Shown here piece after piece: positions 32,645 to 37,801 of a DNA stretch of 64,000 nt. The notes beneath the pieces were generated by a model. It searched no databases. It was given only the letters and a program-made list of their open reading frames with translations, and was not told the origin of the DNA. Every line of letters begins with the position of its first letter. Position 1 is the stretch's first letter. The stretch covers positions 1 to 64,000 of the forward strand of contig LQXN01000052.1 of NCBI GenBank assembly GCA_001648575.1, given 5' to 3'. The position numbers were made by a program, and so were the translations under genes. This stretch comes from Sutcliffiella horikoshii DSM 8719. GTDB taxonomy: Bacteria; Bacillota; Bacilli; Bacillales; Bacillaceae_I.

Positions 32645-33637
32645 TTGACTCCAATCGATGATCTATTAAAGATAATTCCAAGTAAAATCGTCTCACTATT
32701 TACAGGTAAACTACTGGGGGATGCCAATTTGAACCTTCAAAAAGGTAAAAGACCTCGTTTCTACTTTTCACATTCTATCAATGATAAAGAGTGGACTTTT
32801 TATTGTTATGAAAGGCTGAAATCCTTCTTACCACTACCTTCCCCTAAATTTTCGAGAATTTCAGATGCTCGTGTTCTACAAGGGTATACTGAAAAATACT
32901 ATGTACAGTCTAAAACATGTGTGGCAAATGATTTACTTAAAGAAATTTGGTATCCGAACAACAAAAAGACCATACCAATTTCCCTTCTAGAAAAAACCCT
33001 CAATACAGAAGCTCTTGCATGGTGGTACCAGGACGATGGCCATCTTAAAAAGAAGGAAAATACCGTACAGAAAATAATTCTATCTACAGATTCGTTTTCA
33101 AAAGGTGAGAACCTGCATCTAATAAATATTTTAAGAAATAACTTCCAACTTGAATTTTCATTAGATGGTCAAAACCGCCTAGTCCTCTATAACATGCCTC
33201 AAATAAGATACTTTTTATTTTTAGTGGACCCGCATATTCATCCATGTATGAGCAGAAAAAAATCTAGTATAGTACACCCAGTTTCTCCTCAGCCATTATA
33301 TAAGCGCACAACAATATATCTACCAACCTCTATAGTTCTTAATCACCCGACAAAAGATATCAATTCATTCCTAGAATATCTACCTAATATTGAAAAGAAT
33401 TTCCTAACAAGGCACGACCTCGCTCTATTCTATAAAACATCAGACTTTAAAAGTGTCATTGCTATAAACAAAGCAAATACACTAGGCTATCAAATCCGAA
33501 TAAACCAATCAGCACTTCAAAAAATGTATTTCATTCAGAATTTACTCGGGTTAACCAATAGTCAAATAACATTTCTTTGTTACTTAAATCAAACTAAAAA
33601 GAATTATTCTGTCTATGGAAAATACAAAGATAATTAG
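32645..33637 (+). CDS. Free-standing LAGLIDADG homing endonuclease
   Basis: A 330-residue DNA endonuclease of the two-motif LAGLIDADG type (PF03161-like). Motif 1 is FTGKLLGDANL (about residues 19-29), and motif 2 is ALAWWYQDDGHL (near 127-138), each ending in the acidic residue that binds metal at the active site. KIILSTDSFSKGEN after motif 2 is typical of the family. The rest is basic and probably contacts DNA. It starts with TTG behind GGAGG, with TATAAT just upstream (32622-32627). It sits alone between flaG and hag, convergent with hag. Since hag has two ORF-less group I introns, it is the likely mobility enzyme of one of them, acting from outside the intron. Confidence 0.87.
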   Translation: MTPIDDLLKIIPSKIVSLFTGKLLGDANLNLQKGKRPRFYFSHSINDKEWTFYCYERLKSFLPLPSPKFSRISDARVLQGYTEKYYVQSKTCVANDLLKEIWYPNNKKTIPISLLEKTLNTEALAWWYQDDGHLKKKENTVQKIILSTDSFSKGENLHLINILRNNFQLEFSLDGQNRLVLYNMPQIRYFLFLVDPHIHPCMSRKKSSIVHPVSPQPLYKRTTIYLPTSIVLNHPTKDINSFLEYLPNIEKNFLTRHDLALFYKTSDFKSVIAINKANTLGYQIRINQSALQKMYFIQNLLGLTNSQITFLCYLNQTKKNYSVYGKYKDN

Positions 33638-33737: not shown

Positions 33738-35220
33738 TTAACGAAGAAGTTGTAATACACCCTGAGGCTGCTGGTTTGCTTGAGCCAACATTGCTTGAGA
33801 TGCTTGTGCAAGAATAGAATTCTTAGTTTGTTCCATCATTTCTTTCGCCATCGTGCGAACATTTACTTTCATAAATGACTAGACTATATCTTCACCCTCA
33901 CTTAATTGTAGGGGTCGGGCACTTCGGATTCACAGTGCTGATGGACACCGTTTCACCTATGGATTTCATCACCATAGCTTTGCCTTAGATGGTTTATCCT
34001 AGTCGTTGAACCTTCTCCATCCTTTCAGAACAGGAGCTTGGCTGCTGATTGCCAAATCTTTTCTTTTTTCAAAGCCCTCACGCTTGTCGTTTCCAACTAC
34101 GTTGTGGCAAGAAAAGCTCTAATGGGTTTCCAGCAATTCACCCGATAGTAATCGCTAACCGTTACCAGTTAGGACGACTGTGCTTGTTGCTGCTTATGCA
34201 GCTAAAGCATAATCAACGTCACGAACACGTGATTCTGCCGCAGTGAGATTTTCAGATGCATTATTTAAATTATTTATTGTATGCTCTAGTCTATTTTGGT
34301 AAGCACCTAATAAAGAACGACCAGCAGAAACTGTTTCTATCTGTTCATTTATTGTTTCAATTAATGCTGTTGCAGTTGCTTCATCTGCTACATCAGTGGA
34401 AGAAAGAGTTCCTACTGCAGTTTCGATATCAGTTAAGTCAATCCCAGCTGTAGTAAAGTCTAACTCCATTTGTTGTTCGTTATTTGCCCCAACTTGAAAC
34501 TTGACTGCACCATTTCCATCACCTGATGTTCCGTCTAATAAGTTCTGAGTATTAAACTGTGTTGTATCTTTAATTCTGGTTATTTCTTTTCCTAATTCAG
34601 CTAACTCATTTCCAATAGCTTCTCTATCTTTGTCAACGTTAGTATCATTAGAACCTTGAACAGCAAGTTCGCGCATTCTTTGAAGGATATCATGAACTTC
34701 ATTAAGCGCTCCTTCAGCTGTTTGAATCATAGAAATCAATTATGTTATCGCAAAGGCTTTTTATCCTCTGCTTCTTTATGTTTCCATAAAGTTCAGGTCA
34801 TATCTTCACCCCATTAGGGTGCCCCGCGCTCGTGGGTGGGTTATCGGTACGGTTCCTCACCACCTGACCGTCACACCTTCCTAGTTACTTGCTTACCGAT
34901 TCACTAGGCTCGGCTCGGTATTGCCCACCATCCACATAATAGCTGGTTTGGGGTTCCACCGAATTCACGGAGTTATCATTTAAGCATTACTGCTTAAAGC
35001 GGCATTTCTATTTACCGTCTTGTGCGTTTCGGGAAGCTTGATCTAATCCACGAACTTGAGCTCTCATTTTTTCAGAAATAGCTAGTCCAGCAGCATCGTC
35101 CCCAGCTTTATTAATACGTAAACCTGAAGATAATTTCTCCATAGACTTCATTTGCGCATTAGTTGCAGTACCTAACTGACGGTGTGTGTTCAACGCAGCA
35201 ATATTGTTATTAATTCTCAT
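33738..35220 (-). CDS. hag: Flagellin gene interrupted by two group I introns (three exons)
   Basis: The filament protein gene. Exon 1 is 35220-35014 (69 aa, [16 protein letters not shown] to ASRNAQDG). Exon 2 is 34736-34212 (175 aa, [18 protein letters not shown] to [10 protein letters not shown]). Exon 3 is 33851-33738 (37 aa, [14 protein letters not shown] to [10 protein letters not shown]). Joined, they give a normal short Bacillus flagellin of 281 aa with intact D0/D1 termini. Unspliced, exon 1 ends two codons into the intron (GK-stop) and exon 2 reads into YALAA-stop. Both junctions fall between codons. The leader has a sigma-D promoter, a CsrA-binding hairpin and AAGGAGG. Confidence 0.93.
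33852..34211 (-). ncRNA. Group I intron 2 of hag (360 nt)
   Basis: The intron lies between GTTGAT and ATGGCG, so it follows a U and ends in G as group I introns do. The core has canonical elements in order: AATTGCTGGAAACCC (P), GGCAATCAGCAGCCAAGC (Q), GTTCAACGACTAGG (R) and GAAGATATAGTC (S), with GACTA/TAGTC forming P7. A possible internal guide is GTTAGCG, which can pair with exon CGTTGAT across G-U. No ORF of note is inside. The set resembles the IA-type introns of phages. Confidence 0.9.
34737..35013 (-). ncRNA. Group I intron 1 of hag (277 nt)
   Basis: The intron begins after GACGGT and ends ...CATAATTG before ATTTCT. The exon end AAGACGGU pairs with GCCGCTTT a few bases into the intron (P1, with the conserved U-G at the splice site). 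The hairpin TTAAGCA / TGCTTAA follows as P2. Core elements seen are GGCAATACCGAGCCGAGCC (Q region) and GGTGAAGATATGACC (S), with GGTCA/TGACC as P7. It has no ORF. Its Q region looks like tRNA-Leu-type introns rather than intron 2, so the two introns seem unrelated. Confidence 0.9.
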
Positions 35221-36922: not shown

Positions 36923-37801
36923 CTACCTTAAAAAATCCAACAACGAAGGCTGAATCACCCGCGCTCCCACACCAAGCGAAGCACGGTGCACACTCTCCTG
37001 CATCGTCAAATCCGTAATAACTTTCTCAATATCCGCATCCTCATTATCCGATAGAATCCGCGTAGCCACCACTTCTTGATACCCAATGCGGTTGTCCACC
37101 ATTTCCAATCGATTATAACGGGCACCCAACTCAGAACGCTCAGCCGAAATGGTATCCGCAGCTTTATCAAAGCGTCCCATCAAATCCTTCAGTGCATCCG
37201 TATCACTTGTTTCAAGTGCAGCCTGAAGCCCGTTCCAGATCTCCATCATGTCCTTATTAAAAACATTATCTGCATTGATGTTGGATTGCAGCTTGATCCC
37301 ACGGGATACCTCCACCTCAAACGGGGAGTTTTCCGTGCTGACAGATGTTGGATCATTCGCATCCGTGATCCGTGGCTTATCAATTGCAGTACCATTGAAA
37401 ATGTACTTTCCGGCCACTTGAGTATTGGCAACCTGGACAAAATCGTGTTTTAACTGTTCGATTTCTTTTGCCATTGCTTGGCGGTCTTCCGGGGAGTAAG
37501 TATCATTGGATCCTTGTACCACCAATTCACGGGCACGGTGCATCACGCTTTGTACGTGGTCCAATGCTGCCTCAGAGTTCTCCATCCACGCATAAGATTC
37601 ACTCAGATTACGTTTGTATTGCTCAAGCTCCGTCAAGTTTGTACGGTAGTACATCCCCTTCATCGCAACTACCGGATCATCGGATGGCCGGGAGATTTTC
37701 TTACCTGTAGAAAGCTGTTCCATCAGCTTGCCCATTTTTCCATAGCTTGTACTTAATTGCCGCAGAGAGTTCTGCGTCAGCATGCTTTGTGTGACACGCA
37801 T
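36923..37801 (-). CDS. flgL: Hook-filament junction protein FlgL (HAP3)
   Basis: A 292-residue flagellin-like junction protein with MRVTQSMLTQNSLRQLSTSY at the N-terminus, KLMEQLSTGKKISRPSDDPV, and ARELVVQGSNDTYSPEDRQA in the coiled part. The C-terminus ends GARVIQPSLLDFLR. It is 10 bases downstream of flgK, in order with B. subtilis. Confidence 0.96.
   Translation of the reverse strand: MRVTQSMLTQNSLRQLSTSYGKMGKLMEQLSTGKKISRPSDDPVVAMKGMYYRTNLTELEQYKRNLSESYAWMENSEAALDHVQSVMHRARELVVQGSNDTYSPEDRQAMAKEIEQLKHDFVQVANTQVAGKYIFNGTAIDKPRITDANDPTSVSTENSPFEVEVSRGIKLQSNINADNVFNKDMMEIWNGLQAALETSDTDALKDLMGRFDKAADTISAERSELGARYNRLEMVDNRIGYQEVVATRILSDNEDADIEKVITDLTMQESVHRASLGVGARVIQPSLLDFLR

Follow-up and report, generated by a model that had tools for sequence, protein, structure and literature searches.

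The flagellin locus

The window considered here, a stretch of 64,000 nucleotides (nt) from Sutcliffiella horikoshii DSM 8719 (assembly GCA_001648575.1, contig LQXN01000052.1, positions 1 to 64,000 of the forward strand), contains the flagellin gene hag on its minus strand (35220-33738), the reading frame of which is interrupted twice by group I introns. Between hag and flaG, and convergent to hag, lies a free-standing gene for a LAGLIDADG homing endonuclease. The features of the locus are listed below.

35014..35220, minus strand: hag exon 1, residues 1-69, matching Flagellin_N; the 5' exon ends in GACGGT
34737..35013, minus strand: group I intron 1, 277 nt, inserted after residue 69 and ending in G; RF00028 match at 34774-35023, 59.3 bits, E-value 1.6e-12
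35000..35009, minus strand: intron 1 guide, AGAAAU then GCCG, as read from the sequence
34212..34736, minus strand: hag exon 2, residues 70-244
33852..34211, minus strand: group I intron 2, 360 nt, inserted after residue 244 (GAT) and ending in G; RF00028 match at 33860-34210, 85.9 bits, E-value 1.8e-20
34176..34178, minus strand: intron 2 internal guide GUC, pairing (as read from the sequence) with the 5' exon end GAU, with U.G at the splice site
33738..33851, minus strand: hag exon 3 including the stop, residues 245-281 (MAKEMMEQ...LQLLR), in the spliced frame
32645..33637, plus strand: free-standing LAGLIDADG homing endonuclease gene, 330 amino acids, TTG start, PF03161

Excision of 35013-34737 and 34211-33852 leaves an 846-nt coding sequence for an intact flagellin of 281 residues. 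A preliminary description of this DNA, made from its letters, had proposed these coordinates and intron lengths (277 and 360 nt), a start after U and an end in G for each intron, insertion between codons and the 281-residue product, and all of these are exactly reproduced here. The conserved group I core that it attributed to both introns is likewise borne out by the Rfam covariance model RF00028, which matches each of them across its full length and above its gathering score of 50 bits. It had placed the end of translation of an unspliced message after 71 codons; the stop in fact follows 70 (the 69 of exon 1 and one for lysine).

An early in-frame stop is present in each of the two introns, and joining exon 1 directly to exon 3 (exon skipping) would keep the frame. 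The host assembly belongs to the genus Sutcliffiella and comprises 67 contigs, with 99.99% completeness and 3.79% contamination. Within it, Flagellin_N has three matches, namely the two hag exons and a separate open frame of 292 amino acids (36923-37801) that we read as flgL-like. A second intact hag, which the preliminary description had raised, if this locus were silent, as one finding that would speak against its reading, was not found in this genome-wide Flagellin_N search of the 99.99%-complete assembly, and the flagellar genes surrounding hag have open frames, judging by a reading of those frames. Given that only this flagellin gene was found and that each intron carries an early in-frame stop, motility of the host should therefore need the splicing of both introns, which presumably self-splice inside the cell. 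We take S. horikoshii CH28_1T to be a mesophile.

Structure and recurrence of the two introns

In both introns the U that ends the 5' exon is paired as U.G with the internal guide, and the last intron nucleotide is G. For intron 1, reading of the sequence indicates a P1 helix in which the 5' exon end CGGU pairs with GCCG, and a P10 helix in which AGAAAU pairs with AUUUCU at the start of exon 2 (34736-34731). The junctions of this intron are identical in 7/7 distinct alleles, which come from loci collected for other purposes rather than from a dedicated search, and both AGAAATGCCG and ATTTCT are found in all 7.

Intron 2 could be followed more widely. We gathered 102 distinct junctions by a motif at the 3' end of the intron, so that this end and the ATGGC that follows it are preset by the search; 98 have a placeable 5' end, and the remaining four were set aside (one is masked, and three come from two relic junctions). 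The 5' end follows GAT in 98/98 placed junctions, 344-380 nt upstream of the 3' end, and the guide AGTCGTCC lies near the 5' end in every one of them. The P1 helix runs on from GAU/GUC into the intron, and columns 3-6/38-41 of this extension covary, as do P2, P9 and other helices (the helix names being those that we presume to apply); across 34 relatives, 34 of the 89 predicted pairs show changes on both sides. The first 18 nt of exon 3, ATGGCGAAAGAAATGATG, are nearly fixed among intron-2 alleles. Both introns recur at identical sites in other genera, with the same boundaries.

All 98 placed alleles of intron 2 also have an in-frame stop that lies upstream of the core, 5-8 residues after the intron begins, which fits the idea, as outlined in PMC3984707, that ribosome stalling lets an intron fold. 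None of these 98 introns holds an endonuclease gene of its own: their longest stop-to-stop stretch is 110 codons, versus about 300-330 amino acids for the endonuclease, and intron 2 is consequently too short to encode a mobility protein. Two loci, L198 (G257) and L202 (G097), consist of an intron-2 tail and the start of exon 3 without an upstream flagellin exon, and are apparently relics of a lost hag copy.

The neighbouring endonuclease

The protein encoded at 32645-33637 matches LAGLIDADG_2 (PF03161, E-value 5.5e-29), and a profile built from 15 sequences of the family matches I-SceI (PDB 1r7m, E-value 3.5e-21). Like I-SceI, it has both LAGLIDADG motifs, with their catalytic acids. I-SceI is intron-encoded, as its PDB name states, whereas the enzyme in the window is free-standing, and about a third of it, at the C-terminal end, extends beyond the match. 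An open frame no shorter than 280 residues is present at 57 of 67 loci; of the 50 distinct proteins taken from these, 49 keep both acids, whereas that of L098 has lost the first motif. Furthermore, the ratio of nonsynonymous to synonymous substitution rates is 0.10-0.30 in the 14 closest pairs, which indicates that the endonuclease has been under purifying selection. An origin of the gene in phages was considered and found no support, with just 2 phage records matching, both of one phage and at 25% identity.

Association of the endonuclease with intron 2

We assessed the distribution of the two elements in 397 genomes of Bacillales, 380 of which have a match to the flagellin C-terminus, by means of an intron-2/exon-3 junction pattern that allowed up to 3 mismatches and that gave 0 matches when reversed. 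A relative of the endonuclease is present in 31/397 genomes and the intron-2 junction in 66/397, the latter count including G097 and G257, where the motif lacks an upstream flagellin exon. Both are found in 25 genomes, the endonuclease only in 6, the intron only in 41 and neither in 325 (Fisher test, odds ratio 33, p = 1.4e-16). Counted by genus, the corresponding figures are 18, 5, 15 and 97, such that intron 2 occurs in 18 of 23 genera with the endonuclease versus 15 of 112 others (p = 1.7e-9); counting in this way lessens the effect of shared ancestry, yet it is still partly there. Where an endonuclease is uninterrupted (free of stops, with 240 or more residues matched), 18/19 genomes have the intron-2 junction; both the genus table and the list of 19 uninterrupted copies were counted by hand.

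The physical linkage of the pair is close. In all 25 genomes with both elements, the endonuclease lies downstream of the split hag junction on the same contig, at a distance of 123-2724 nt, and it is convergent to hag in 24 of them, G291 (L186) having both on the same strand. The six genomes scored as having the endonuclease only are varied: G028 holds a fragment, and G045 matches weakly, at 23% identity; broken copies adjoin unoccupied hag sites in G116 (L180) and G200 (L181); the pattern failed to pick up the hag of G052, which is split at the intron-2 position, so that this genome was scored intron-negative, and its endonuclease contains a stop; and in G386 an unoccupied hag, with MAKEVM encoded at the site, lies 9 kb from an intact endonuclease gene.

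A search of named genomes for the endonuclease, in a set that overlaps the 397 genomes and does not provide an independent test, returned 50 loci spanning Sutcliffiella, Anoxybacillus, Rossellomorea, Neobacillus, Mesobacillus, Metabacillus, Halobacillus, Planococcus, Sporosarcina and others. A hag with the intron-2 junction is found at 41/50 of these, an unoccupied hag site at 3/50 (L092, L100 and L101), and no such site within the fetched stretch at 6/50 (L061, L087, L098, L103, L107 and L108); 49 of the 50, all except L108, were inspected in detail. Taken together, the occurrence of the endonuclease with intron 2 in so many relatives suggests that the pair spreads together.

Two observations on individual loci may be added. 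Broken endonuclease genes beside an unoccupied site, as in L180 (G116), L181 (G200) and L100, are what would be expected if homing proceeds as a cycle in which the elements are gained, decay and are lost. G339 (L179, G339:C11:230500-237500), one of the 18 intron-2 genomes with an uninterrupted endonuclease, has three tandem copies of hag, of which two hold intron 2 and a third, C-terminal intron (one of these also holds intron 1), and the last, with an unoccupied intron-2 site coding for MAKELM, adjoins an intact endonuclease gene.

Exon sequence around the intron-2 site

We compared 43 intron-2 alleles from endonuclease loci with 39 hag genes that lack the intron, the latter drawn from 40 chosen by N-terminal similarity in genomes without endonuclease or intron-2 junction (L328 could not be matched). 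GAT at codon -1, which is expected from P1, is present in 43/43 alleles with the intron versus 18/39 without. Three further codons, all outside P1 as drawn, are also fixed or nearly so: GAC at -3 (42/43 versus 24/39, p = 3e-5), GCG at +2 (43/43 versus 16/39, p = 3e-10) and AAA at +3 (43/43 versus 25/39, the hags without intron having AAG in 6 cases and a residue other than lysine in 8). Apart from the ATGGC noted above, the letters of this footprint are independent of the search motif. As P1 does not reach these codons, a recognition site or co-conversion offers the simpler cause of their fixation. Distances between introns also track those between endonucleases, modestly but beyond what four host markers account for (partial r 0.22-0.36 over 20-26 loci, permutation p 0.0005-0.03).

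A contrast in which amino-acid changes at unoccupied hag sites were confined to those beside an intact endonuclease (4/39 alleles) was dropped. It was unsound because 20 of the comparison loci were the best C-terminal matches, a choice that favours MAKEMM, and a fair control, the 40 hags chosen by N-terminal similarity, gave 14/40 changed by a hand count.

A proposed mechanism and its alternatives

We consider it likely that both introns of hag are group I ribozymes that need to splice if flagellin is to be produced, and that intron 2 is mobilised in trans by the neighbouring I-SceI-like endonuclease. Both introns would be invaders of the most conserved codons of flagellin, and are most likely selfish ribozymes whose splicing renders them nearly neutral. 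In a hag without the intron, the endonuclease would cleave the intron-2 site or a position close to it; intron 2, the flanking exon and the endonuclease gene would then be copied together as the break is repaired from a donor, a process of collaborative homing. Once the local hag alleles are all occupied, the enzyme would decay, leaving broken copies, and the intron could persist alone.

Several observations weigh against this account. No relative of the endonuclease was detected at an E-value of 0.001 in 41 of the 66 intron-2 genomes, and intron 2 therefore persists in the absence of the enzyme. In L092 the endonuclease is uninterrupted, yet the hag site is unoccupied and codes for DMAKEMM. 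The fixed exon codons could stem partly from some splicing requirement, and the intron-2 allele of G052, which stands outside the counted set, has GCC at +2. The correlation between intron and endonuclease distances beyond host markers is modest, at the partial r given above, and that between intron and host given the endonuclease equals or exceeds it for two of the four markers (0.30 and 0.34). Finally, when set against the fair control, unoccupied sites beside intact endonucleases are not significantly more often altered, whether counted by allele (4/5, including L092, versus 14/40, p = 0.14) or by genome (3/4, p = 0.28).

A potential alternative is that the endonuclease promotes no homing but its own, with the gap that follows hag as its insertion point, and hitch-hikes beside intron 2 while having another target. 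Its position outside the intron, at a variable distance (123-2724 nt), is in keeping with this, as are the high correlation between endonuclease and host distances (0.52-0.73) and the broken copies that adjoin unoccupied hag sites coding for DMAKEMM (G116, G200 and L100). However, homing into the gap between hag and flaG leaves unexplained why an intron should sit at one codon boundary of hag in 18/19 genomes with an uninterrupted copy, and why the codons at the intron-2 site are fixed, so that we allow this explanation a small but real chance of being correct. It is highly improbable that the neighbouring protein is a maturase that aids the splicing of intron 2: most genomes with intron 2 (41/66) lack a relative at the E-value threshold applied, and both catalytic acids, for which a pure maturase has no need, are kept in all but one of the 50 full-length proteins.

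The introns might instead constitute a regulatory device of the host, for example if temperature-dependent splicing set the level of flagellin. Hayakawa and Ishizuka (2012), as summarised in PMC4853749, indeed describe temperature-dependent ribozyme activity in thermophiles and a possible regulatory role. The distribution of the introns is patchy within genera, however, with the intron-2 junction in only 6/15 genomes of the host's own genus (the host genome included), and the hallmarks of a mobile element account for it without a role for the host. We regard a primarily regulatory function as distinctly unlikely, while a secondary regulatory effect alongside a mobile-element nature is possible. 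That splicing has been lost, leaving hag a dead gene, is scarcely credible, given that the group I core and guides are present, that the exons join into one open frame, that the surrounding flagellar genes are open and that a search of the genome found no other flagellin gene.

A third intron site in relatives

The hag genes of relatives have two or three intron sites occupied (all three in G009), the third site lying 14 codons before the stop and being occupied by a further group I intron (e.g. L013 1300-1850, L062, L275, L285), which the hag of the window lacks. L008 (G009), from a Sutcliffiella relative, has introns at all three sites, and no endonuclease relative was found in its genome. 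From 81 candidate junctions, 5 were dropped for want of a guide or exon motif, and the start of the 3' exon is preset by the search motif; a scan of genomes gave 76 that are pattern-positive, some of them through 3-mismatch matches outside hag.

The 5' exon of the third intron ends in GCT in 76/76 distinct alleles, and its 3' exon supplies 14 residues before the stop. When the message is read unspliced, translation into the intron likewise reaches a stop after precisely 14 residues in 73/76 alleles, the final five being identical to those of the exon-encoded tail. The intron and exon copies of the C-terminus have a mean identity of 68% in DNA and 83% in protein (73 alleles), and lineage-specific endings appear in both copies: LLQ in L143, L254 and L283, LLG in L285, and AVLQLLR in L275-L281. 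The three exceptions (L121, L256 and L282) also belong to LLQ lineages, and their intronic tail is lost or unlike. Where one of the final seven codons deviates from the majority, the change is synonymous in 211 cases and nonsynonymous in 13 in the intron copy, and 142 and 12 in the exon copy (pooled over related alleles). Owing to this synonymous excess, both copies look translated, and unspliced and spliced messages would both encode a full-length flagellin.

A 5' splice site after ATGCCT, suggested by the pairing of AUGCCU with GGGCGU, proved to be wrong, the boundary after GCT being the one kept in 76/76. A P1 extension pairing fits this boundary, with a mean duplex energy of -7.6 kcal/mol versus -5.5 kcal/mol when swapped, and 0/200 shuffles as low (69 distinct arm pairs).

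With less assurance than for the mobilisation of intron 2, we lean towards regarding the hag of Bacillales as a lasting hot spot of group I intron insertion, in which two strategies that appear unreported may be distinguished. One is an intron between residues 244 and 245, without an open reading frame, that would be moved by a convergent I-SceI-like gene; the other, seen only in relatives, is the third-site intron, which re-encodes the C-terminus such that flagellin would be complete whether spliced or unspliced, possibly in two C-terminal forms.

Relation to known introns

Group I introns that self-splice have been reported from flagellin genes of Geobacillus stearothermophilus and thermophilic Bacillus (Hayakawa and Ishizuka 2009, 2012, as cited in PMC3984707 and PMC4853749). 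The preliminary description had mentioned such reports from thermophiles, and rightly so, yet the term thermophilic is ill-suited to this Sutcliffiella host. It had also regarded two introns with a nearby endonuclease as unusual: the endonuclease family is indeed tied to intron 2, but multiple introns in hag are commoner than was thought. As far as the cited summaries go, the present introns share with those of the thermophiles their nature as group I introns of a flagellin gene, and differ in the Sutcliffiella host, in the two sites per gene and in the order-wide family of free-standing endonucleases.

Collaborative (trans) homing is described from phages, where a free-standing endonuclease is aimed at the insertion site of an intron, for example in cyanophage psbA (Zeng et al. 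2009, as cited in PMC3984707). On that description, both systems combine a group I intron lacking an open reading frame with a separate endonuclease gene, the two being thought to converge on one site, whereas the present case concerns bacterial chromosomes, a motility gene, an I-SceI-type enzyme, a convergent downstream gene and a cleavage that is predicted. The recA and nrdE introns of Bacillus, as covered in PMC3984707, are likewise group I introns within protein genes, although the host genes differ. The host genome has a third group I-like match (G000:C67:62728-62991, L006) of 39.8 bits, below the cut-off, which lies within an apparent ribonucleotide reductase gene together with an open frame that resembles, by reading alone, an HNH-type endonuclease.

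For the third hag intron, a parallel is offered by a surface-layer gene of Clostridium tetani, which according to PMC3919590 contains a group II intron with alternative splicing. Both are bacterial ribozyme introns that would give variants of a surface protein, but the hag intron is of group I and mimics the exon that it interrupts, whereas that of C. tetani is of group II. A link between flagellin introns and an endonuclease was not found in our search of the open-access literature, as far as the texts it returned extend. Flagellin introns themselves and collaborative homing in phages are already known, and what appears to be new here is the joining of flagellin introns to an order-wide endonuclease family.

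Significance

Should the endonuclease indeed cleave at the position of intron 2, collaborative homing would operate in bacterial chromosomes, and in a strongly selected gene. The homing cycle could then be tested on the many natural states found among relatives, namely intron with enzyme, intron alone, and a broken enzyme by an empty site. The third-site intron would represent a clean case of a ribozyme intron hedging against splicing failure, and would offer a natural experiment on the possible use of group I splicing by bacteria to produce two forms of a protein.
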